64,000 nt of DNA from a bacterium (GTDB lineage: Bacteria; Actinomycetota; Acidimicrobiia; Acidimicrobiales; Bin134): positions 1-64,000 of the forward strand of contig JAPOVT010000002.1 in NCBI GenBank assembly GCA_026708015.1. Reading direction: 5' to 3'. The notes below the pieces were generated by a model. The model searched no databases. It was not told where the DNA came from and saw nothing but the letters and a program-made list of their open reading frames with translations. Position numbers and translations under genes: made by a program. Of the stretch, positions 3,473-38,325 are shown piece by piece. The stretch's first letter is position 1, and each line of letters opens with the position of its first letter.

Positions 3473-3602
3473 TCAGGAGGAACCAGCTTCTTGGGGAGAG
3501 GAGGAGGCGGGCACGCCGTCGGGGTAGGGGAGGGTGTTGTTGGGGGTGGCGGGGGTTCTTGGGCCGTCGAAGAGTATTCCGGTGAGGTTGAGGGGGTCGC
3601 AG
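3473..3602 (-). repeat. Remnant of an lhr 3' end (outer copy)
   Basis: Read on the minus strand this segment encodes CDPLNLTGILFDGPRTP, then ATPNNTLPYPDGVP, a short Ser-rich tail and an in-frame TGA at 3473-3475. The real Lhr C-terminus reads CDPLNLTGFLFEGPRTP, ATPNNTLTYIDGVP. Similarity begins abruptly at the CDP codons (about 3602) and stops from the neighbouring gene precede it, so only the last ~30 shared codons remain. It is a diverged allele, not a recent copy: several changes are at third positions. It is not expressed as a gene of its own. Confidence 0.8.
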
Positions 3603-3618
3603 GGAGCCCGTCGGTGAG

Positions 3619-4293
3619 CTATTCGGACTCACCTGCCTCGGCTAGTGCTCTCCGGGCAACTTCGGGGTTGCGGCGGACTGCGGCGCTCAGTTGAAGGTCG
3701 AACCAGCGCTGGCGATGTTCTTTAACAGCCTCCTGCCATCCGTCATGCGGGATTGCGAGTTCCTCGATGATCATGGATTCGATGAGGTCCTCCAAGGTCG
3801 GGCGGAATCGCCTGCCTCCGGTGGGCCAATGAAAATCTGGTAGCCGGCGCTCCACTCCCATGGCATCGGCAAGTGGGTTCACAGGGCTCTCCGTCCCGTG
3901 GATGTGGACATGAGCTGCTGGATATGCCAATTCGTTTTTCGCGAGCACAGGTTCGCGGTTGTAGTCGTACCGGATAATTGGGTTTTGTAGGTCATCGGTC
4001 AGATGAAGCTCGACACGGCTGCTGGTGGTTGCGATGTGGACTCTCTCAGGGTCCAATTCAAGACGGTGGAGAATCACCAAGAAGCACTTGGGATCGGCCT
4101 GGCTGATCGTGACTGGGATGGGTTTCGTCGCGTGGGGCGCCTGCTTATTGATTTGAAAGCCGACCCAACCCTGTCTTCCACCGGGATACAGCACAGCTGT
4201 GATGGGGATGCCGTTGGTAATCGTTCGGTTCAGCAGGTCTTGAATTTGGTCGGCAAATTCCCGGGCCAGCCGGGCAAGATCAGCAGTTTTCAA
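3619..4293 (-). CDS. Unrecognised protein, second gene of a coupled pair
   Basis: 224 residues from TTG 4293, overlapping the preceding 69-residue gene by 14 nt, which implies translational coupling. I do not recognise the family. Visible features are an N-terminal amphipathic helix with LAREFADQIQDLL, a beta-rich middle (RQGWVGFQI, HIATTSSRVELHL), a His-rich stretch AHVHIHG near residue 128, and a helical C-terminal third ending in ARRALAEAGESE. The His-x-His-x-His element could bind metal, which is inference. The small-gene/large-gene overlap and its place between two lhr remnants, next to toxin-antitoxin genes, suggest an accessory or addiction-type module. It has no recognisable nuclease or kinase motif. 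Confidence 0.6.
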   Translation of the reverse strand: MKTADLARLAREFADQIQDLLNRTITNGIPITAVLYPGGRQGWVGFQINKQAPHATKPIPVTISQADPKCFLVILHRLELDPERVHIATTSSRVELHLTDDLQNPIIRYDYNREPVLAKNELAYPAAHVHIHGTESPVNPLADAMGVERRLPDFHWPTGGRRFRPTLEDLIESMIIEELAIPHDGWQEAVKEHRQRWFDLQLSAAVRRNPEVARRALAEAGESE

Positions 4294-4489
4294 TTTGCGG
4301 AGCGATCATGAACCAGGTGAGCCGAGCCTTGTGCGACGGAAAATCGTCGTCTCTTGCACAGGTCTCAAGCTCTTCGTAGCTCATCTGTAGCTCCGCAAGT
4401 GCCAAATCAGTCCCTTGCCGCAGGTCTTCCTCAGTTACAAAAACGACCGACTCGTCCCCAGGCGCGACCAGGTCTGTTGGAGTGCTCAT
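4280..4489 (-). CDS. Small unrecognised acidic protein, first gene of a coupled pair
   Basis: 69 residues from ATG 4489, with AGGAAGG upstream as ribosome binding site. The protein is acidic in its first half (VVFVTEEDLRQGTD) and ends in a helix with MSYEELETCARDDDFPSHKARLTWF. It overlaps the 224-residue gene downstream. The size, acidity and leading position are those of many antitoxins, but no DNA-binding motif is evident. The function is unknown. Confidence 0.6.
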   Translation of the reverse strand: MSTPTDLVAPGDESVVFVTEEDLRQGTDLALAELQMSYEELETCARDDDFPSHKARLTWFMIAPQIENC

Positions 4490-4579
4490 CTAACCTTCCT
4501 CCATCTTTGGGACATCTCAAGCATACCGGCCATTCTAAAGAGAGGTGGTGACAGATTCTCTGTCGACTTGTTGGTTGGT

Positions 4580-4643
4580 TCTAGCCAGAAGATCCGGGCA
4601 CGCCGTCGGTGTAGGGGAGGGTGTTGTTGGGGGTGGCGGGAGT
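4580..4643 (-). repeat. Remnant of an lhr 3' end (inner copy)
   Basis: On the minus strand this encodes TPATPNNTLPYTDGVPGSSG followed by an in-frame TAG at 4580-4582, matching the last ~17 codons of Lhr (TPATPNNTLTYIDGVP...). Its tail resembles the outer remnant (GVPxSS) more than the present gene. It separates the unknown gene pair from the Phd/RelE module. Confidence 0.75.
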
Positions 4644-4710
4644 GGGGCGCTCAGCCACCTAGTTGGAAGAGGGGGTGTGTTTTCGCAATCGGTGTGGCAC
4701 AATTGTGGTC

Positions 4711-4980
4711 ATGTCAAGCGAGTCGTTGCGCACAGTGCGAGATCGGTTCTCCGAGTTCATCGAACGGGTGAATACGCATCATGAACGGGTGGTAATCACC
4801 CGCAACGGCTCGCCAGCCGCGGTGCTTGTGAGTCCCGAGGATCTCGAGTCGCTTGAGGAGACCTTGGAGATACTGGGAGACGAAGAGGTGGTGGCGCAGC
4901 TTGCCGAAGCACACCGCGCTTATCTGGAGGGCGACGTTGTCCGCGGGGTTGAGGCCGTTAGGGCACTGCGCCCCTCGTGA
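4711..4980 (+). CDS. Phd/YefM-family antitoxin
   Basis: 89 residues from ATG 4711. The first 55 residues match Phd/YefM: SESLRTVRDRFSEFIERV, then RVVITRNGSPAAVLVSPEDLESLEETL, the DNA-binding dimer fold of this family. The rest is a helical toxin-binding tail. The stop overlaps the toxin start by 4 nt (GTGA). It should repress its own operon and block the RelE-type toxin. A short inverted element, GGCACAATTGTGG, lies just before the start and could be the operator; no Shine-Dalgarno is obvious. Confidence 0.85.
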   Translation: MSSESLRTVRDRFSEFIERVNTHHERVVITRNGSPAAVLVSPEDLESLEETLEILGDEEVVAQLAEAHRAYLEGDVVRGVEAVRALRPS

Positions 4981-5249
4981 GCGACTCTTCGTTTGAGCTG
5001 GTGGTGGCCCGGCCGGCGGCCAAGGCAATCGCCAACGAATTGCCCGAGTCGGTGGCCTCCGCCGTGATCGAGTTGATTACCGGGCCATTGCTGGAGAATC
5101 CCCGGCGAGTGGGCGTGGCGCTGAGGAACGAGCTTGAAGGGCTGTGGAGCGCCCGGCGGGGCACCTATCGAGTGCTATATCGGGTTGAAGAGACGAAACG
5201 AGAGATCGTGGTCTTGCGAGTGGGCCATCGTCGAGACGTGTACCGATAG
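4977..5249 (+). CDS. RelE/ParE-family toxin
   Basis: 90 residues from GTG 4977, overlapping the antitoxin stop. The core matches RelE/StbE mRNA interferases: an N-terminal strand and helix (FELVVARPAAKAIANELP), a loop with NPRRVGVALRNELEGLWSAR, then GTYRVLYRV and IVVLRVGHRRDVY. Arg in the GxYRVLY strand and the C-terminal HRRDVY are the conserved catalytic-face residues. It ends 30 bp from the lhr stop, tail to tail. Confidence 0.85.
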   Translation: MSDSSFELVVARPAAKAIANELPESVASAVIELITGPLLENPRRVGVALRNELEGLWSARRGTYRVLYRVEETKREIVVLRVGHRRDVYR

Positions 5250-5279
5250 AGCAGCTATCGCGACTCCTGGGGATCTCCC

Positions 5280-8200
5280 CTATTGGGGCGAAGGCACTCC
5301 ATCTATGTAGGTGAGGGTGTTGTTGGGGGTGGCGGGGGTTCTTGGGCCTTCGAAGAGGAATCCGGTGAGATTGAGGGGGTCGCAGGCGGCGATGGTTGTT
5401 TGCTGGCCGGTGAGGGGGTGGCGGCGGACCTTTTGGAGTTGGTCGGCGGCGGCGGGGAGGGCGAACTGCTCGCCGCTTTGGCCAGCTACGAAGCGGCCGC
5501 CTCTGACGATGCCGCGGTCTTCGAAGCGGCGCAGGGCCTTGAGGATGTCTCGCCACGGGGTTGCGGTGGGGGTGGCGGGGTGGTGGGCGAGGCTGCGGAA
5601 CACCACGCCCCAGCAGGCCAGCAGTTGCTGGGCGACGGCCTCGGCCAAGTCGTCGGCGGGGAGCTCTTCGGGTGGGGGAACCAGGGACCAGCGGCCGGGG
5701 GCGGCGTGGGTTTCGCGAGACGCGCCATTGTTAAAGGTGCGATTCATGCGCATGGCCCGAGTGCGAAGGGCTTGGGAGCGCAGGTTCTGGCCCGAGCGAT
5801 GGCGGGTAGGTCGACGGCTGCTGCGGTTGAGCAGGGCCCGCACCGCGGCGAAGCCGTCGGCGGTGAACAGGCCGAGGGCGACGCCGTTCCACAGGGCTCT
5901 TTCGATGTCGTCGGGCAGGCGGTGGGTGGCGCCGGCCAGATCGGGCAGGAAACTGGCGCCTTGGGACTGGAGGATGTCGGCGATTTCTTGGACGGGGCCG
6001 GCTTCGGGGGGCTCGGGGCTGTTGGTGCGGGCGGCGGCCAGGAGCCAATGGAGGTCTTCTCGGAACACGAGGGTGATGGGGGTGGCTTTGCGGGGAGCCA
6101 TTGAGTTGGCCTTGGCCGGCGTGTTGGGGGGCGTTAGGCGGAGCCAGGCCAGCTCGCCGCGGTAGCAGAGTTCGTCGAGCCACAGGGGGTCATAGTCGGG
6201 GAGTCGTTTGGCAATGATCTGCTTTTCCCAGGCGCCGGCGGGAAGGTCGAGGCCTTGGAGCTGCTCGAGGACTTTGGCGAGGCCGGGGCGGCCTCGGACT
6301 GTGCTGTCTGGAGTTAGGTGGTGGTAGTCGAGGAGGAAGCGCATGAAGTCTTGGGGGGAGGCGGCTTGTATAGAGGCGCGTTTTTGTCTTCGAGATAGAT
6401 AAGACATTCGTTGGAGGAGTCTTCGGGAGCACCATGTTTCTGTTCCCCCGGTGTGCCGGCGGGTCCTGTCACCGGAAGCGGCCTGGCCGTCGGAGCGGCC
6501 AGGTCCGCCACCGGCGCCACCCCCCGTCACACCTTCGGTGGGAGCACCCCCCTTTTTTGTTGGAGAGGGGAGGTGGTCAGCGCGCATTGCCACCCCTTCG
6601 GATTCGAGGGCGGCCAGTGCTTGATTGACCGTCGGAAGGTCTAGGGCTGTTTTGTCTGCAAGTTGTTCGGGGGTGGTGGGGCCGGTGGCTTCTAGGTGGC
6701 CTCGGATGGTTTCGGTGGCTTTTTCGGGGGTTAGGGCGGTTTCGGCAAGTTCGGTGGTGGTCCAGAGGGGGTTTTCGTCTTGGTTCTTTAAGGTGCAGAC
6801 CCGGTTTTTGGATTTCAGGGCTTCGTAGAGCTCTTGCCAGGTGGGGTTGGGGCGGGTGACTACTTGGGTGGTCAGCAGGTCGTGGAGCTCATCGGGGGTT
6901 CTGGGGTCGGGGGTTATCTCCTCGACTACTTGGGCGATGGCATCGGGGGCGATTTGAGAGAGGGTTGAGGCATCCAGGGTGGGGGGCTGTTGGTCGCTTC
7001 GGGGGCGCAGGCCTCGGGGGACGGTGACGGCGTTGGTGCGGCGGTCGACGATCTCGGCGTCGTCCAAAAAGGCGTAGGGGCGGGCGTTGACTATTTCGTG
7101 GCTGAGGGGGGAGGGCTCGGCGGTGTCGCAGAAGTGGGTGCGGACCGCGCCGGAGCGGATGTCGGTGAGGAGTTTCTTGAGGCCGTCAACGTCGAGGGCC
7201 TCATGGAGGGTGTCGTAGAGGGTTTGGCGCACCAGCAGGTGATCGGGGATCTCGATGGGGCCGGCCACGTTCTCCTGGCAGGCCGCCGCACCGGGGAACA
7301 CGGCGGCCATGATGTCGTCGGCCTCCATGCGCTGGATGGGGGGCGGGTTGCGCTTTCCGCCCCGGCTGCGCAGCACCACCAGGGCCCGGTTGAGGTTCCA
7401 CCGCCAGCGGGCGGCGAACATGGGCGAATCCAGCACGGCCTGGGTCAGCACCTCCTCCACCGAGTCAGGGTGCAGGAACTGGGGGACGTCGCTGAGGGGG
7501 AAGCTGTGGTGGGGGCCGAGCGACAAGATGATGGCGTTGTCGTTGGCCGCCGCCTGAAGCTCGAAGTCGAAGCGGCGGCAGAGGCGCTTGCGCAGCGCCA
7601 GCCCGAAAGCTCGATTGATGCGCCCCCCGTAGGGGCTGTGGACCACGAGCTGCTGGCCGCCGGTGTCGTCGAAGAAGCGCTCGAACACGATGTTTGTGTG
7701 GGTGGGGACGGTGCCTAGGGCGGCTTGGGCCGCGGCGATGTAGGCCACGGCCTGCTCGGCGATCTCGTTTGTCGTGTCGTGGGCTTGGGCGAATTGGGCG
7801 GCGGCTTCCAGGGCGCCAGCTTCGAAGGCTTCAGTGTCGAGGGGGTCGGCGTTCGGGGCTTGCGAGAGGAGGCTGTATATATAGGCGCGCAGATCGGACA
7901 CCTGCTGGGACAGCTCGGCGGTGCGGGCGGGGGCCTCGCCCAGCCAGAAGGGGACGGTGGGCGGGGCGTCGCCGGCGTCGATCACCCGCACGGTGCCGGC
8001 GGCCACCTGCTTGATGCGCCAGGAGTGGGAGCCCAACAAGAAGATGTCGCCGGCCATCGACTCCACCGCCCAGTCTTCGTTGACCGTGCCGATGAAGGTG
8101 TCGTCGGGCTCGGCCACCACCCGGTAGTCGCCGTTCTCGCCGATGGCGCCCCCGGAGGTGAGAGCGGCCAGCCGGGCCCCCCGTTTGCCCCGCACCTCCT

Positions 8201-9722
8201 GGTTGATGGAGTCGTGGTGGAGGTAGGCGCCCCGGGGGCCTCGGCCGGTGACCACTCCTTTGGCGGCCTGCTCAATGGCCTCGTCGAACTGGTCTTTGGT
8301 GAGGCTGGCGTAGGGGGCGGCCTTGGTGAACATGTCGTAGAGGCCGCCGGTGGTGTGGTTGTCGTCGGCGGCGGCCTCGGCGATGAGCTGCTGCACCAGG
8401 ATGTCGAGGGGGGCTTCAGGGGGGCGAACGGCGTCGAGCTGGCCCTGGTTCACGGCGTGGATGAGGGCGAGGCACTCGATGAGCTCGTCGCGGGTGAGGG
8501 GCCACAGGCGGCCCTTGGGGGTGCCGTGGCGGCTGTGGTTGGAGCGGCCCACCCGCTGGAGGAAGGTGGCGATGCTGCGAGGGGAGCCCACCTGGCATAC
8601 CAGCTCCACGGGGCCGATGTCGATGCCCAGCTCCAGAGACGCGGTGGCCACCAGGGCTTTTAGGTCGCCAGCCCGGAGGCGGTGCTCGGTACGGATGCGA
8701 CGCTCGGTTGACAGGGAGCCGTGGTGGGCGGCCACCGCGTCTTCGCCCAGGCGCTCGGCCAGCTGGTGGGCGATGCGCTCGGACATGCGGCGGGTGTTGA
8801 CGAACACGATGGTGGTGTGGTGCTCGCCGACGAGGGTGGCCATGCGGTCGAGGATCTGGTCCATCTGGGCATGGGAGACCACGGCGTCGAGCTCGTCGTC
8901 GATCAGCTCCAAGGCGATGTCGAGGTTTCGCTGATGGCCGGTGTCGACGATGGTGCACTGGGTGGCGGGTTCGGCGGCGCCAGACTCGGTGGAGCCGGCG
9001 CCGTTGTCGGACCGGTTGGCGGGGACGCCGGTGAGCAGGTCGGCGATGGTGGCGATGGGGTGCTGGGTGGCCGACAGGCCGATTCGGGTGGGGCGGACGT
9101 CGGCGGCGTGCTCAAGGCGCTCGAGGGTGAGGGCCAGGTGGCTGCCCCGCTTGTCTCGGGCGGTGGCGTGGATCTCGTCGACGATCACCGTCTCCACGGT
9201 GCGCAGCACCTCACGGCTCTTGGCCGCGGTCACCAGCAGGTAGAGCGACTCGGGGGTGGTGACCACGAAGTTGGCCGGCTTTTTGATCATGGCGGCCCGG
9301 GTGTGGGCCGGGGTGTCGCCGGTGCGCACCGCCACCGTAAGCGGCGGGGGCTCATGGCCTTGTTCCCGGGCGATCTCGGCGATCTCTGCTAAGGGGCGCT
9401 CCAGGTTCTCGGCGATGTCGGTGGCCAGCGCCTTGAGCGGCGACACGTACACCACCTGGCTGGTCTTGGCCACCGTTTGGCCTTGGGCGTGGCGCTTGTA
9501 GAGGTTGTCGATGGCGATGAGGAACCCGGCCAGGGTCTTGCCCGACCCGGTGGGCGCGGCGATCAGCGTGTCTTGGCCCGAGGCGATGGCCAGCCACCCC
9601 TGGGCCTGGGCCTCCGTCGGCCCGTCCGGAAACCGCTGCTCAAACCATGCCGCCACCGCGGGGTGAAACTCAAAGCCGACGTCGGCCAACACACCGGCCT
9701 CGGCGTGGATCGGGGAAGCCAC
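5280..9722 (-). CDS. lhr: Lhr-type ATP-dependent helicase
   Basis: 1480 residues, close to the ~1500 of actinobacterial Lhr. The N-terminal superfamily 2 core carries Walker A APTGSGKTLAGF (residues ~54-65), the DEIH box, SATQHP (motif III) and QRVGRSNH (motif VI). A winged-helix and the long Lhr C-terminal region follow, including WCSRRLL and DFMRFLL. Lhr is a 3'-5' translocase acting in DNA repair. Between about residues 1044 and 1090 there is a Gly-rich insertion (see its entry). The downstream side has accumulated cassettes separated by remnants of lhr 3' ends, so the last codons of this copy may have come in with the newest cassette. The start is ATG 9722; no upstream in-frame alternative looks better. 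Confidence 0.93.
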   Translation of the reverse strand: MASPIHAEAGVLADVGFEFHPAVAAWFEQRFPDGPTEAQAQGWLAIASGQDTLIAAPTGSGKTLAGFLIAIDNLYKRHAQGQTVAKTSQVVYVSPLKALATDIAENLERPLAEIAEIAREQGHEPPPLTVAVRTGDTPAHTRAAMIKKPANFVVTTPESLYLLVTAAKSREVLRTVETVIVDEIHATARDKRGSHLALTLERLEHAADVRPTRIGLSATQHPIATIADLLTGVPANRSDNGAGSTESGAAEPATQCTIVDTGHQRNLDIALELIDDELDAVVSHAQMDQILDRMATLVGEHHTTIVFVNTRRMSERIAHQLAERLGEDAVAAHHGSLSTERRIRTEHRLRAGDLKALVATASLELGIDIGPVELVCQVGSPRSIATFLQRVGRSNHSRHGTPKGRLWPLTRDELIECLALIHAVNQGQLDAVRPPEAPLDILVQQLIAEAAADDNHTTGGLYDMFTKAAPYASLTKDQFDEAIEQAAKGVVTGRGPRGAYLHHDSINQEVRGKRGARLAALTSGGAIGENGDYRVVAEPDDTFIGTVNEDWAVESMAGDIFLLGSHSWRIKQVAAGTVRVIDAGDAPPTVPFWLGEAPARTAELSQQVSDLRAYIYSLLSQAPNADPLDTEAFEAGALEAAAQFAQAHDTTNEIAEQAVAYIAAAQAALGTVPTHTNIVFERFFDDTGGQQLVVHSPYGGRINRAFGLALRKRLCRRFDFELQAAANDNAIILSLGPHHSFPLSDVPQFLHPDSVEEVLTQAVLDSPMFAARWRWNLNRALVVLRSRGGKRNPPPIQRMEADDIMAAVFPGAAACQENVAGPIEIPDHLLVRQTLYDTLHEALDVDGLKKLLTDIRSGAVRTHFCDTAEPSPLSHEIVNARPYAFLDDAEIVDRRTNAVTVPRGLRPRSDQQPPTLDASTLSQIAPDAIAQVVEEITPDPRTPDELHDLLTTQVVTRPNPTWQELYEALKSKNRVCTLKNQDENPLWTTTELAETALTPEKATETIRGHLEATGPTTPEQLADKTALDLPTVNQALAALESEGVAMRADHLPSPTKKGGAPTEGVTGGGAGGGPGRSDGQAASGDRTRRHTGGTETWCSRRLLQRMSYLSRRQKRASIQAASPQDFMRFLLDYHHLTPDSTVRGRPGLAKVLEQLQGLDLPAGAWEKQIIAKRLPDYDPLWLDELCYRGELAWLRLTPPNTPAKANSMAPRKATPITLVFREDLHWLLAAARTNSPEPPEAGPVQEIADILQSQGASFLPDLAGATHRLPDDIERALWNGVALGLFTADGFAAVRALLNRSSRRPTRHRSGQNLRSQALRTRAMRMNRTFNNGASRETHAAPGRWSLVPPPEELPADDLAEAVAQQLLACWGVVFRSLAHHPATPTATPWRDILKALRRFEDRGIVRGGRFVAGQSGEQFALPAAADQLQKVRRHPLTGQQTTIAACDPLNLTGFLFEGPRTPATPNNTLTYIDGVPSPQ
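6452..6590 (-). other. In-frame Gly-rich insertion within lhr
   Basis: Encodes PTKKGGAPTEGVTGGGAGGG and following Arg/Gly-rich residues ahead of ETWCSRRLL. From memory of the family only about 10 residues join these conserved blocks. The DNA contains a perfect 8-bp inverted repeat, CCTGGCCG (6482-6489) and CGGCCAGG (6496-6503), with a 6-nt loop, and an AAAAAAGGGGGGTG tract. Confidence 0.5.
7876..7890 (+). repeat. TATATATAGGCGCGC 15-mer within lhr
   Basis: Identical to 3116-3130. On the coding strand it falls in the codons for RAYIY of Lhr, so it is tolerated in frame. Confidence 0.5.
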
Positions 9723-16576: not shown

Positions 16577-18064
16577 ATGACGAAGTCTTGGCGAATCTTG
16601 CTCGCGCTTTTTGCTGTGTTCGCGCTAGTGGCCAGTGCCTGCGGCAACGACGGCGATGACGCACCGGTGAGCGAGCCGGCGCCGGCCGCTCCCGAGGACG
16701 AGCCCGCGCCCGAGCCCGAGGACGAGGACGAGCCCGCGCCCGCGCCAGAGCCCGAGGACGAGGATGAGCCCGCGCCCGCTGCTGAGCCCGAGGACGAGGA
16801 TGAGCCCGCGCCTGCGCCTGAGCCCGAGGAGCCGTCTGATCCCAACATCGTGGAGTTGGGCGGCGGCGCGATGATCGACATCACCGAGTGCCCCGACGAG
16901 TGGGACAACTATCAGGGTGTTACCGATACCGAGATCCGCTTCGGCAGCAGCCTGCCCCGTTCGGGCGCGCTGGCCGGGTTCGGCACCATCAGCGACGGTG
17001 TGCAGCTCTACTTCGACCACGTGGGCCCGATCGACGGCCGCAACGTGGTGATGGTGAGCCGAGACGACGGCTACGTCGCCGCCCGCACCAAGACCAACGT
17101 GGAAGAGATGATCGACGTTGAGAATCTGTTGGGATTTGCCGGGATTCTGGGCAGCCCCAACAACCTGGCCGTCCACGACCTGTTGAACGAGAACTGCATT
17201 CCCCAGCTGCTCAACCTGACCGGCCTGCCGGAGTGGGGCGACCCCAACAACTACCCGTGGACCACCGGGGCGCTGATGTCTTATGAGACCGAGGCCCGGA
17301 TCTGGTGCCAGCACGTGGCCGATGAAATCGGCTCGGGGGCCACGGTGGCCATCTTGTCGCTAGACAACGACGCCGGGGAGGCCTGGCGGGTGGCCTTCAA
17401 CGAGTGCGCTCCCGGCTTGGGCCTGGACGTGGTGGACGAGGTTCAGCACGACCCGCAGGCCGATTCCGTAGGCCCAGATGTGACCACCCTGGCGGCCAGC
17501 GATGCCGACGTGCTGCTGGTGGCCTCATCGGGGGCCTTCTGCGTCCAAGCGGTGCTCCAGACGGCCACCATTGCGTGGGAGCCGCTGGTGCTGGTGGCCA
17601 ATGGGTGCCAGCGCATCGCCCTGTTCTGGGCGCCTATAGGGCCGCTGGCCAACGGGATCCGCTTGGTGAACACCCAAAAGGACCTATCTGATGCCTCGCT
17701 GGCCGACGACGAATGGGTGCAGTTTGTGCGGGGCGCACTGGAGAGCCAGGGTGTTGACCCCGATGCTGAATCCCACGCCCTGGGCTACATCTTCGGCGAG
17801 ATCCTGCACGAGGTTCTGCTGGACGCGGTCGACATGGACGGCGGCATCAACCGCACCAACTTGATGCAGGCCATGTGGCAAATGAGCTTCGACTCCAGGG
17901 GCGCGATCGGCAACACGCCGCGGGCCATGGATGGAGCCAACGACTCCTACATGGTGGAAGCCGGGCGCATCGAAGAATTGGTGGTGGACGAAGACGGCGC
18001 CCGCTACGTGCCCATCAGCGACGTGATCGACTACGAGGGCGAGACCGGCACGTTCGCCCCATAA
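16577..18064 (+). CDS. Substrate-binding lipoprotein of LIV-type transporter
   Basis: 495 residues. A lipoprotein signal peptide ends in LVASAC with the acylated Cys at 22. Residues ~30-92 are a disordered tether of repeating E/D-P-A-P units encoded by tandem 30-48 bp DNA repeats (16684-16840). The periplasmic-binding type 1 fold follows, starting YQGVTDTEIRFGSSLPRSG. It should capture the ligand outside the membrane for LivHM. AAGGG precedes the ATG. A strong hairpin terminator follows the stop. The ligand is unknown. Confidence 0.9.
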   Translation: MTKSWRILLALFAVFALVASACGNDGDDAPVSEPAPAAPEDEPAPEPEDEDEPAPAPEPEDEDEPAPAAEPEDEDEPAPAPEPEEPSDPNIVELGGGAMIDITECPDEWDNYQGVTDTEIRFGSSLPRSGALAGFGTISDGVQLYFDHVGPIDGRNVVMVSRDDGYVAARTKTNVEEMIDVENLLGFAGILGSPNNLAVHDLLNENCIPQLLNLTGLPEWGDPNNYPWTTGALMSYETEARIWCQHVADEIGSGATVAILSLDNDAGEAWRVAFNECAPGLGLDVVDEVQHDPQADSVGPDVTTLAASDADVLLVASSGAFCVQAVLQTATIAWEPLVLVANGCQRIALFWAPIGPLANGIRLVNTQKDLSDASLADDEWVQFVRGALESQGVDPDAESHALGYIFGEILHEVLLDAVDMDGGINRTNLMQAMWQMSFDSRGAIGNTPRAMDGANDSYMVEAGRIEELVVDEDGARYVPISDVIDYEGETGTFAP

Positions 18065-22984: not shown

Positions 22985-24514
22985 TCAGTTCACAAACGAG
23001 AAGGCTTCGGGATCATGCCAGTCTTCCCGGACAACCTCCCAGCACAGCCACGGTTTGCCGGGCTCGCCGGTCCACTGCTCGAAAGCGCCGTCCACGATCT
23101 CCACGGCGTTGATGCAGCGGTATTCGTAGTCGGCATCGGGATTGTTGTTGGGCAGGGCGATTTGGCGGCTGAAGTCGATCGGGTTGGTCAGGCCGTCGTG
23201 GCTGTAGTCGTCAAAGCCCCGCACCGCATCGACCAAGGAGGCCCGGTCGAACTCGGGGCCGGCAGCCAGTAGGCCGTCATAGAACAGATGGGCGTTGAGC
23301 CAGCCGACCATGGTCTGCTCCTCGAGCTTGATGTCGGCGGTGTAATCGAAGAACGCCTGCTGGAGGTCGCTGTCGATGTTTGCCTCGAACGGCACAAACT
23401 GGGTGAACACCAGGTCGCCTTCGAACAGGTCGGCGTTGGCGGCCACAAACTCGTGGTTGTAGGTGTTCGGGTGATACATGACCACCTGATCGCGGTAGTC
23501 CTGCTTGACCAGCTCCTGGGCGATGGTGCGCATGCCGTTGAGGTCGAGGCAGGTGTAGATGATGTCGACGCCCTTGTCCTTCATCTCCGACACTTGGGGG
23601 GCGACGCCGCCGGCCAGGCCGAATTCGATGGAGGTGTCGAAGAACTCCACGGTCATGCCCCCGGCCTCGGCGCTGTAGTGCTCGATGGAGTCTCGGGTGC
23701 CCTCGGCGCAGATCTTGGAGTTCTCGCTGTTGCCGTAGCCGAAGATGCCGGCCTTGGCGGCCCCCACATAGGTGGCGATGTAGGGGAACAGCTGGTGGAT
23801 GCAGCCGATGCAACTGGGGGCGATGTGGCCGAAGATGTTGCGCCGGTCGGCGAACTCGTTGTGGATGTTCCATCCGAACGTGGGCACTCCGGCGTCGTTG
23901 AGGGTGTCGGCCCCGAAGAACAGCAGGGTGGCCACGAAGGCGGCCAGCGAATCATCCTCTTCCACCATGGCCAGCGACTCGGGCAGGTTCTGGAAGAGCT
24001 GGTCGTCGCGCTTGGTGGCCAGCACCAGCTCGCGCCCGTAGATGCCGCCGGTGTCGTTGATGAAGTTGAAGTAGGCCTCGATGCCGTCGTTGTAGGCCCC
24101 GATGTTGGTGCCCAGCGCGTTGTTGCTGATGGTGACGATGGAGGTGACCTTGATCTCGTCGTCGTTCACCCCGGGCACGCCGGAGATGGGCACGAAGGTG
24201 TGGCGGTGCTCGGGCTCCTTGGGCTCCTCGGGCTCCGGTTCAGCCTCGGGGGCAGGGGCGGGCTCGTCATCGGCTTCCTCCGGGGCGGGCGCGGACGCGT
24301 CGTCGGGGGCATCTTCGGGGGCAGGGGCGGGCTCGTCATCGGCTTCCTCCGGGGCGGGCGCGGACGCGTCGTCGGGGGCATCTTCAGGAGCTGGCGCCGC
24401 GGTGGCGGCAGGGGCACCCCCTTCGTCGTCGTTCCCGGCGTTGCCGCAGGCCGTGGCCACCAGAGCCAGCACGGCGAGCGCAGCGAATACCAGCTTCCAC
24501 CAACGAGCAGTCAT
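22985..24514 (-). CDS. Substrate-binding lipoprotein of second LIV-type transporter
   Basis: 509 residues. The signal peptide ends LVATAC with lipid-anchored Cys23. Residues ~35-100 are an Ala/Asp/Glu/Pro tether containing a perfect 23-residue duplication. The binding fold begins GVNDDEIKVTSIV and includes AYFNFINDTGGIYGRELV. It is 30 nt upstream of the fused permease and heads its operon. The ligand cannot be told from sequence. Confidence 0.9.
   Translation of the reverse strand: MTARWWKLVFAALAVLALVATACGNAGNDDEGGAPAATAAPAPEDAPDDASAPAPEEADDEPAPAPEDAPDDASAPAPEEADDEPAPAPEAEPEPEEPKEPEHRHTFVPISGVPGVNDDEIKVTSIVTISNNALGTNIGAYNDGIEAYFNFINDTGGIYGRELVLATKRDDQLFQNLPESLAMVEEDDSLAAFVATLLFFGADTLNDAGVPTFGWNIHNEFADRRNIFGHIAPSCIGCIHQLFPYIATYVGAAKAGIFGYGNSENSKICAEGTRDSIEHYSAEAGGMTVEFFDTSIEFGLAGGVAPQVSEMKDKGVDIIYTCLDLNGMRTIAQELVKQDYRDQVVMYHPNTYNHEFVAANADLFEGDLVFTQFVPFEANIDSDLQQAFFDYTADIKLEEQTMVGWLNAHLFYDGLLAAGPEFDRASLVDAVRGFDDYSHDGLTNPIDFSRQIALPNNNPDADYEYRCINAVEIVDGAFEQWTGEPGKPWLCWEVVREDWHDPEAFSFVN
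24247..24384 (-). repeat. 69-bp perfect tandem repeat in lipoprotein tether
   Basis: Two identical 69-bp units (24247-24315, 24316-24384) encode the 23-residue unit EDAPDDASAPAPEEADDEP plus four residues. The identity at DNA level marks a recent slippage or unequal-exchange event. Confidence 0.85.
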
Positions 24515-35993: not shown

Positions 35994-37103
35994 CTAGAGC
36001 TTGGTGGTTTGGGCCAAGGCGGCGGCGTCTCGGGCTAGGTCGAGGACGACGCGGCCGAAGGCCTCCATGCGGGGGTTGTCGGCCCCGCCGGCTACGAAGC
36101 GGGCGTAGCCGCCCTCGAGCACGATGGCCAGCTTGAAGCGGGCCAGGATCACGTAGTAGTCGATCTCTTCCACGTCGCGGCCCGACATGGTGGCATAGCG
36201 GTCCAGCAGCTCGTCGCGGAAGGGCAGACCCTCGTAGTCGACGTAGCCCACCGAGGGGCGGCTGGCCTCGTCCTCGGGCCAGTTCATCACCACCCAGGCC
36301 AGGTCGAGCAGCGGGTCGCCCACGGTGCCCATCTCCCAGTCGACGACGGCGGCCATACGGGCGGGGGCGCCGTGGTGGAACATCACATTGGCGAACTGGT
36401 AGTCGCCGTGCATGATGCCGGGCGTATAGCTGCGGGGAGTGCGGCCTCGGAGCCAGTCGCCGGCGGTATCGAGGCCGGGGATGTCGCGGAACTTGAACCG
36501 GTCGAGGTGGGCGTACCAGCGGTCGACCTGGCGCTCGTGGAAGCCGTCGGGGCGGCCCAGTCCCTCGAGCCCGTTGGCCTGCCAGTCGACCTTGGACAAC
36601 CGGGCGATGGCGTCGACCAGCTCATAGGCCAGGGCAGGACGGGCGTCCATGTCGGAGGCGAACGGCTCGGGCCAGCCGGGCTCACTGATGGGCGACCAGC
36701 CGTCGACGAAATCCATGAGGTAGAAGGCCGCTCCGATGATGCTGGTGTCGTCGGTGCCGCCCGCGGCCCGAGCGTGGGGGACGTCGGTGTCGGCCAACGC
36801 GGAGAGAATGCGGTACTCCCGCATCATGGTCTCGTTGCGGCCCTCGGGAACCTTGCGGGGCGGTCGCCGCAGGGCCCAGCGGTGCTCACCCCGGCATACC
36901 TCGAAGATCTCGTTGGAGGCGCCGCCGGAGATGAACCGGCTGGTGACGGGCTCGCACTGGCCGGGGAGGCCTTGGGCGTCCATCCACTCCCCCAGGGCGA
37001 CGGGCTCGATCAGGCCTTTGGTGCGCTCGGCCTCGGAGGCCTCGTCGGTGTCGGTGCGCGAGAAGACGCTGGAATCCGTGGCTGACTCGGCTTGTTCGCT
37101 CAT
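35994..37103 (-). CDS. APH-family phosphotransferase (ACAD10-kinase-like)
   Basis: 369 residues. Choline/aminoglycoside kinase fold: RFISGGASNEIFEV (nucleotide loop), MMREYRIL, YLMDFVDGW, the catalytic IMHGDYQFANVMF and VVDWEMGTVGDPLLDLAW. Relatives in actinobacteria and the N-terminal half of mammalian ACAD10/11 phosphorylate 4-hydroxy acids before dehydration, which fits the acyl-CoA genes here. Its ATG overlaps the stop of a residual amidohydrolase 3' end (ATGA), so a remnant supplies the upstream junction. Last gene of the long minus-strand run. Confidence 0.85.
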   Translation of the reverse strand: MSEQAESATDSSVFSRTDTDEASEAERTKGLIEPVALGEWMDAQGLPGQCEPVTSRFISGGASNEIFEVCRGEHRWALRRPPRKVPEGRNETMMREYRILSALADTDVPHARAAGGTDDTSIIGAAFYLMDFVDGWSPISEPGWPEPFASDMDARPALAYELVDAIARLSKVDWQANGLEGLGRPDGFHERQVDRWYAHLDRFKFRDIPGLDTAGDWLRGRTPRSYTPGIMHGDYQFANVMFHHGAPARMAAVVDWEMGTVGDPLLDLAWVVMNWPEDEASRPSVGYVDYEGLPFRDELLDRYATMSGRDVEEIDYYVILARFKLAIVLEGGYARFVAGGADNPRMEAFGRVVLDLARDAAALAQTTKL

Positions 37104-37138
37104 GCGGCAGGGCGAAGGGTGAGAAGCTCTTTGAGGTT
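37100..37138 (-). repeat. Residual 3' end of an amidohydrolase gene
   Basis: Thirteen codons reading NLKELLTLRPAA and TGA, two bases after the stop of the real gene, which ends with the same residues at 37141-37179. The two differ at eight bases, all synonymous. The remnant's TGA overlaps the ATG of the next gene. Confidence 0.85.
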
Positions 37139-37140
37139 AG

Positions 37141-38325
37141 TCATGCTGCTGGCCTCAAAGTGAGAAGCTCTTTGAGATTTTCAGACATGACCTTGCGCTG
37201 GCCTTCGGGGCTTTGGTCTTCGACTTCCTTGAAGAAGTCAAGGGGTTGGGCGAGTCCTTCGGGGTGGGGGAAGTCGGATCCGAACAGCACCCGGTCGATG
37301 CCGATGTCGTCGATGAGGCCGGAGATGTCCTCCTCATAGAACGGGCTCACCGAGATGTGGCGACGGAAGGTCTCCACTGGGTCTTCGCCAAACTCCTGGG
37401 GCATCTTGCCGTAGGCCTGGGACAGCTCCGACAACAGCGGGGCCACCCAGGTGGAGCCGTTCTCAATGCAGGCCACCCGCACGTCGGGATGGCGCTCGAA
37501 CAAGCCGTGGCAGATCATCGCCGCGATGGTGTCGAAGATGGGCCGGCCGTGGCTGATAACCGTGCGGAAGGCGGCGGGCTTGAACGGCAGGAACTCGTCG
37601 CGGCCGCCCTCCCAGTCGCTGGCGTAGGTGTCATAGCCGGAGTCGGAGGCATGGCAGGTGACCAGGATCCCGGTTTGCTCCACCGCATTCCAGAAGTCGT
37701 CGAACTCGGGCAGTCCCATAGAGCGGGAGCCCCGCACAGCGGGTACCGGGGCGGGGCGGATCAGCACGGCCCGAGCCCCGTTGTCCACGGCCCACTCCAG
37801 CTCTTCGATGGCCCGGCGGGGGTCGGGCAGGGTGATGATCGGGGTGGGGAAGATGCGGTCGTGGTAGTTGAACGTCCATTCGTCCAGCATCCAGCGGTTG
37901 AAGGCGGTTATGGCGGCGTGGGTGAGCTCGATGTCGTCCTTCATCCGCTCTTCGAGCAATGAGGCCAGGGTGGGGAACAGCAGCGTGGCGTACACCCCCT
38001 GCTCGTCGAGCAGCTTGACTCGGTCGTCGGGGTGGCGGAAGGCGGGAAGACAGCGGATGGGTCTGCCGGAGAACTGGCGCAGGGTCTTGCCTTCGGGGTT
38101 GTTGCCCCGGTGGTACTCCTCCCAGGCGCCAGGAGGGGCGACCACCTCGAAGGTGGGATTGGGGATGTACTCGCTGATCTTGTTGTTGATGGCGATCTTG
38201 GTGCGGCCCTCGATGTCCACGTACCGGATGGCGCTGCTATAGCGCTCGGGCAGGTGGCGGGTGAAGGCGTCGATGGGCTCGTAGAGGTGATTGTCGGCGT
38301 CGTAGGCGTGATAGTCGAGGGTCAT
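37141..38325 (-). CDS. Amidohydrolase family 2 (TIM-barrel) hydrolase/decarboxylase
   Basis: 394 residues from ATG 38325, with GGAGG upstream and an ATGA overlap with the gene before. Amidohydrolase_2/ACMSD-like fold: YDADNHLYEPIDAFTRHLP (DxDxH variant of the metal motif), KISEYIPNP, TCHASDSGY, IENGSTWVAPLL and LFGSDFPHPEG with the terminal metal Asp. Such enzymes hydrolyse or decarboxylate carboxylic acids using a metal. It is a paralogue of the protein at 59474, which shares nearly all of these blocks. A 13-codon duplicate of its own 3' end lies just downstream. Confidence 0.88.
   Translation of the reverse strand: MTLDYHAYDADNHLYEPIDAFTRHLPERYSSAIRYVDIEGRTKIAINNKISEYIPNPTFEVVAPPGAWEEYHRGNNPEGKTLRQFSGRPIRCLPAFRHPDDRVKLLDEQGVYATLLFPTLASLLEERMKDDIELTHAAITAFNRWMLDEWTFNYHDRIFPTPIITLPDPRRAIEELEWAVDNGARAVLIRPAPVPAVRGSRSMGLPEFDDFWNAVEQTGILVTCHASDSGYDTYASDWEGGRDEFLPFKPAAFRTVISHGRPIFDTIAAMICHGLFERHPDVRVACIENGSTWVAPLLSELSQAYGKMPQEFGEDPVETFRRHISVSPFYEEDISGLIDDIGIDRVLFGSDFPHPEGLAQPLDFFKEVEDQSPEGQRKVMSENLKELLTLRPAA

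Follow-up and report, generated by a model that had tools for sequence, protein, structure and literature searches.

The window analysed here, a 64,000-nucleotide stretch of an acidimicrobial genome (G000), carries on its minus strand an amidohydrolase gene followed immediately by a phosphotransferase gene (Table 1). The tail of the amidohydrolase gene, its last 12 codons and stop, is present twice: copy A closes the gene, and copy B stands directly behind it, its own stop overlapping the start of the phosphotransferase gene.

Table 1. Features of the duplicated amidohydrolase tail and its two genes, in window coordinates.
Feature	Position	Strand	Basis
Amidohydro_2 gene, 394 aa and stop, ending in copy A	37141..38325	-	Pfam PF04909, E 1.9e-20; orthologues align over residues 1-394 from the same ATG
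Copy A, last 12 codons and stop in use, type-A codons TTG AGG CCA GCA	37141..37179	-	Sequence, repeat search, comparison of ends
17-base identical word CTCAAAGAGCTTCTCAC in copy A, candidate exchange/deletion site	37160..37176	-	Read from the sequence
Two-base junction between the copies, CT on the minus strand	37139..37140	-	CC, GC or CT among the six doubles
Copy B, resident gene end, type-B codons CTT CGC CCT GCC	37100..37138	-	12 codons identical to the only end in G018
17-base identical word in copy B, same as in copy A	37119..37135	-	Read from the sequence
14-codon micro-ORF MTNLKELLTLRPAA*, ATG over the first stop, TGA over the next start	37100..37144	-	Sequence; open in 6 of 6 doubles
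Phosphotransferase gene, APH family, 369 aa, start overlapping the copy B stop (ATGA)	35994..37103	-	ORF; Pfam PF01636, E 1.2e-37

On the minus strand, copy A reads AAT CTC AAA GAG CTT CTC ACT TTG AGG CCA GCA GCA TGA and copy B reads AAC CTC AAA GAG CTT CTC ACC CTT CGC CCT GCC GCA TGA. A repeat search returned the pair as a direct repeat of 39 nt with 79% identity and a spacing of 41. The initial annotation, made from the sequence of the window, had placed the repeat correctly but described it as 13 recurring codons; only 12 codons recur, and the thirteenth triplet is the stop. Its statement that the 12 residues are identical and the eight base differences all silent was confirmed by codon comparison: 8 of the 39 bases differ, in 6 of the 12 codons, with no residue difference. 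By computation, approximately 26% of single-base changes in the repeated stretch are silent, and in a simulation the peptide stayed intact in 10 of 1,000,000 random sets of eight changes, or about one per 100,000 draws. An assembly artefact was ruled out by the presence of the same 41-base structure in six genomes, two of which (G007 and G014) are single-contig assemblies. A chance repeat was ruled out by the tail-copy scores and mismatched control described below, together with the silent-only differences.

We compared the locus across the genus (sponge Acidimicrobiia, Candidatus Poriferisocius and kin) in 22 genomes, one per species, among which G018 is the sister genome of G000. The amidohydrolase gene is present in 16 of the 22 genomes, at 17 loci. 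Paralogues with under 60% identity (L026-L030 and L032-L038) were excluded from these counts; the 17 include two loci of G006, one of which lies on a 4.3-kb contig, is identical to G015 where aligned, and may be contamination. Named copies of these loci belong to MAGs of Acidimicrobiia, including one labelled Candidatus Poriferisocius anaerobius. The tail is double at six loci (G000, G005, G007, G009, G012 and G014) and single at the other 11. The extra length of the doubles is exactly 41 bases every time, and apart from this insert the 11 single ends align with copy B. The flanks align as well, and a direct repeat (39 nt, with an identical 17-base word and a spacing of 41) lies at the base of the segment, as in a short variable segment.

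A marker tree of rpoB and gyrB regions (21 genomes, 16 of them with the amidohydrolase gene) shows six changes between double and single; the tree of the gene body shows five and the APH tree six. A double stands beside a single on the marker tree, with support of 100/100, in four pairs (G000-G018, G012-G003, G014-G013 and G007-G006), and a fifth pair, G005-G019, has weaker support (73/83). The gene trees disagree with the marker tree and identities along the locus are mosaic, and we therefore conclude that alleles have been exchanged. For example, the gene body of G000 and G018 groups with that of G002, unlike in the marker tree.

The gene ends fall into two codon types. All ends in use in doubles follow the type-A pattern, [TC]TG AG[GA] CC[AG] GCN GCA TGA. 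The type-B pattern, CT[TC] CG[CA] CC[TG] GC[CT] GCA TGA, is found in copy B, wherever this is readable, and in 10 of the 11 single ends; decayed copies B carry further changes beyond it. Copy A of the window is 3 bases from copy A of G012 and 8 or more from any single end, and only about its last six codons and stop are of the foreign type. Type-A ends go roughly by species (G012 with G005; CCA common to G000, G007 and G014), and those of the doubles diverge from each other about as much as the species do. We note that the single end of G021, the most distant of the amidohydrolases, is of type A, and that this locus (L053) is also missing some 60 bases from the beginning of the APH gene. G021 is nested within the genus on the marker tree, so its locus may have been exchanged.

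These patterns bear on the simplest origin, a plain tandem duplication by slippage in the window genome followed by chance silent changes. Short tandem duplications, defined as 33-base windows with at least 26 matches at a spacing of 24-150, are common here, with 43 in 855 kb and none in simulated sequence. Nevertheless, we regard this origin as highly improbable, because eight of eight changes are silent, with a chance of about 1e-5, and because the type-A codons are common to copies A of other species. The initial annotation had reached the same view of a fresh tandem copy, and had proposed instead two alleles that diverged under selection; the comparison agrees, in that both copies evolved as real gene ends.

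The state of copy B differs among the doubles. Copy B of G000 shows no change over 12 codons from the single end of G018, that of G012 shows one silent change from the ends of G003 and G019, and the two copies B differ from each other by four bases, all silent. Had the stretch been free to change along the path from G000 to G012, approximately nine residue changes would be expected, with a computed probability of 9e-5 for none, which argues that both functioned as gene ends through most of their history. Copy B differs from copy A by three residues in G005, four in G014, five in G007 and nine in G009, and these changes mean that it has not been kept as a peptide there. Conservation of copy B as a peptide was therefore ruled out as a general rule, as it has been lost in four of six doubles. 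In G009, 18 of 36 bases differ from its own copy A; since this copy B is barely recognisable, its homology rests mainly on its length and the first bases after the stop.

The initial annotation had further proposed that a whole incoming allele replaced the gene in the window lineage and left the resident tail behind. Copy B is indeed the resident end carrying the ATGA overlap with the next gene, and it matches the vertically inherited allele, as seen in the end of G018, but the full gene is not nearest to a donor clade. G000 and G018 are 91-98% identical in four segments of the gene body (97% in the last) and 96% in each flank. Sliding identities place G018 closest to G000 in the windows that adjoin the repeat on either side, with no step in identity, which rules out replacement of the whole gene after the two split; in these windows G000 is no nearer to a donor clade than to its sister. 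Silent-only differences and the match of copy B to the vertical allele would be expected from whole-allele replacement, and such an event could have taken place in the common ancestor of G000 and G018, whose gene body has the discordant grouping described above. In G005, moreover, the 300 bases leading up to the repeat have their closest match in another clade (G006/G020), and past the repeat G005 is closer to its own clade. With body and flanks of G000 close to G018 and no step at the repeat, we consider replacement improbable as the origin of the window's two tails. As a separate observation, G014 (L054) has a brief stretch of divergence where its phosphotransferase gene begins: for 150 bases past the repeat no relative is more than 83% identical, after which identity goes back up to 93-94%.

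The distribution of doubles and singles, the fixed length of 41 bases, the two codon types, the match of copy B with the end found in the sister genome, and a gene body that was not replaced are all seen directly. To account for them, we favor a history to which we give about an even chance: a long-standing 41-base duplication of the tail is segregating within the genus, and copies are gained, lost or renewed as double and single alleles recombine. The duplication, spanning the overlap of the amidohydrolase and phosphotransferase genes, would have arisen in the genus, probably once, and would now be a present/absent variant in which single alleles keep one end, of type B. Double alleles would have a second end of the older type, type A, in use, with copy B decaying behind the stop of that end. 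Homologous recombination between a double and a single allele, probably inside the 17-base word, would move the 41 bases in or out, and the same exchange may instead give a double allele a fresh copy B. For the window lineage, we infer one of two routes: recent entry of the 41 bases, or uptake of a fresh copy B by a double allele from a single one. Copy B of the window would have been a working gene end until recently, and hence the two copies would differ by silent changes only; both routes need an exchange between double and single alleles.

Several points weigh against recombination. The comparison covers end states of species, one genome per species, rather than strains. The 17-base word is below the 30 bp threshold for efficient RecA exchange quoted in a report on microdiversity loci (PMC2884548), so slippage may do more than recombination. 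Finally, the type-A ends may have been inherited vertically, the singles having lost the 41 bases precisely and more than once. Developed in full, this last point becomes a rival that we think possible but doubtful: the double would be ancestral and vertically inherited, singles would arise by recurrent precise slippage deletion, and copy B would stay intact in some doubles by selection (as a relay peptide, see below) or by repair from copy A. The rough grouping of type-A ends with species would follow, deletion from one copy to the other would yield the type-B end that 10 of the 11 singles have, the ATG of the micro-ORF is kept in all six doubles, and deletions at short repeats are known (PMC2884548 and PMC5426353). 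However, by our own count on the marker tree some eight separate losses would be needed, each with an intact copy B, and copy B is decayed in four of six doubles yet differs only silently between G000 and G012 (P 9e-5).

The 41-base feature belongs with known short variable segments, and we regard it as a small and mostly ordinary genome scar. In PMC2884548, approximately 10% of small variable segments, or microdiversity loci, are flanked by short direct repeats, which is attributed to slippage, and illegitimate recombination assisted by homology is discussed. Our locus resembles these in that a short segment is present or absent between relatives; it differs in that the segment is a diverged gene tail across a stop/start overlap, compared between species rather than strains. 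It also resembles RecA-independent deletion (PMC5426353) in having a short direct repeat able to delete the sequence between its copies, but deletions were observed there and end states alone are available here. A literature search for SPDIR and for duplicated C-terminal ends returned nothing useful, from which we do not claim absence from print. The repeat is a compact record of how short duplications and allele exchange across species shape gene ends: the retained tail reveals the resident allele, and the 41-base unit shows a gene overlap duplicated without breaking the operon.

We then considered whether the duplicated overlap is read by ribosomes. In all six doubles, a 14-codon frame opens with an ATG over the first stop and ends on the start of the next gene. 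GCATGA stands at both ends of this micro-ORF, except for GTGA at the second end in G009, giving a stop/start overlap at both ends in six of six. The A that makes the ATG is the third base of the last alanine codon, and it is A in every double. Among 151 conserved fourfold sites this is the only one with A in all six doubles; A accounts for 44 of the 906 bases at these sites, 29 other sites have A in one to three doubles, and the fourfold sites adjoining this A vary. Decayed copies B are expected to be free of stops by chance at 0.83-0.96 per copy, so lack of stops was rejected as too weak a proof of a relay, and the retained ATG is the better evidence. The retained ATG fits a relay, but common descent could explain part of it.

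According to PMC10666635, a distance of approximately 20 nt almost abolishes coupling in ATGA termination-reinitiation, so the 41-nt gap should uncouple the two genes unless the micro-ORF is read. Judged from the nucleotide pattern, this suggests that ribosomes may pass from the first stop via the 14-codon frame to the next gene. More tentatively, and as less likely than not, we propose a self-maintaining relay micro-ORF born of tail duplication across an ATGA overlap: ribosomes that finish the first gene would reinitiate on the overlapping ATG, translate the 14 unconstrained codons and reinitiate once more at the next gene; selection would keep the length (2 mod 3), the start and the stop as the peptide drifts; and the module would toggle between double and single by cross-species recombination. 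The stop/start overlap at both ends of the micro-ORF is like the ATGA coupling of PMC10666635; a micro-ORF as relay is absent from its abstract. Such a relay is the only possibly new part of the feature. If true, it would be a natural test of termination-reinitiation via a tiny frame with free sequence; otherwise the repeat is an ordinary scar.

To see how common such tails are, we scored genes of the window; among those scored only the amidohydrolase tail stood out, at 60, with the next best at 30, within chance. We extended the scan to 855 kb with 746 predicted genes, made up of the window and 40 further stretches of its genome (23% of the genome in addition to the window). At a score threshold of 45 and within 400 nt, a tail copy was found for 2 of 746 genes, compared to 0 of 746 in a mismatched control. 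The second gene encodes an ABC permease (L130:7390-7484, G000:C56), with the copy at an offset of 43; its tail is double in 3 of 11 loci (G000, G018 and G002) and single in the eight others. Copy B of G000 and the bases that follow equal the single end of G021, and the copy A end of G000 equals the copy B end of G002. This locus follows the logic of the amidohydrolase tail and counts in favor of the recombination history, since here too the copies are different alleles. One residue differs between them, so purely silent divergence is not general.

The 43 short tandem duplications comprise 29 within genes, six over a predicted stop (some of which rest on doubtful gene predictions), two over a start and six outside genes. 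By rough arithmetic (746 genes, a span of about 100 nt, 855 kb), approximately four would be expected to span a stop. Gene tails are not clearly over-represented, and the idea of tails as a recombination hot spot was unsupported. With tail copies at 2 of 746 genes in this sample, the "general habit" of the lineage suggested by the initial annotation found little support either.

The scar at lhr, taken in the same annotation for one of the same kind, is real but different. Behind lhr (5280-9722), partial copies of its tail lie at 3491-3607 and about 4595-4643, 1.7 and 0.7 kb away, with a Phd/YefM antitoxin ORF and an unassigned ORF in between (region 3491-5386). G021 has a short arrangement, in which the lhr tail runs straight into the sequence found behind the window's distal copy, so the additional genes of the window resemble insertions that came with a new tail. 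Integrative elements and insertion hot spots occur in gene 3' ends, and from its sequence the 3' end of lhr looks like such an insertion site, unlike the 41-base duplication. The amidohydrolase repeat shares with such elements a displaced resident tail and near-synonymous differences, but just two bases separate its copies, with no integrase and no mobile cargo. Displaced partial lhr tails are also carried downstream in G005 and G010. Elsewhere in the window, we noted a perfect 71-base direct repeat with a spacing of 69 (24246-24385) and an adjacent repeat of 66-72 bases with 86% identity (16693-16830).
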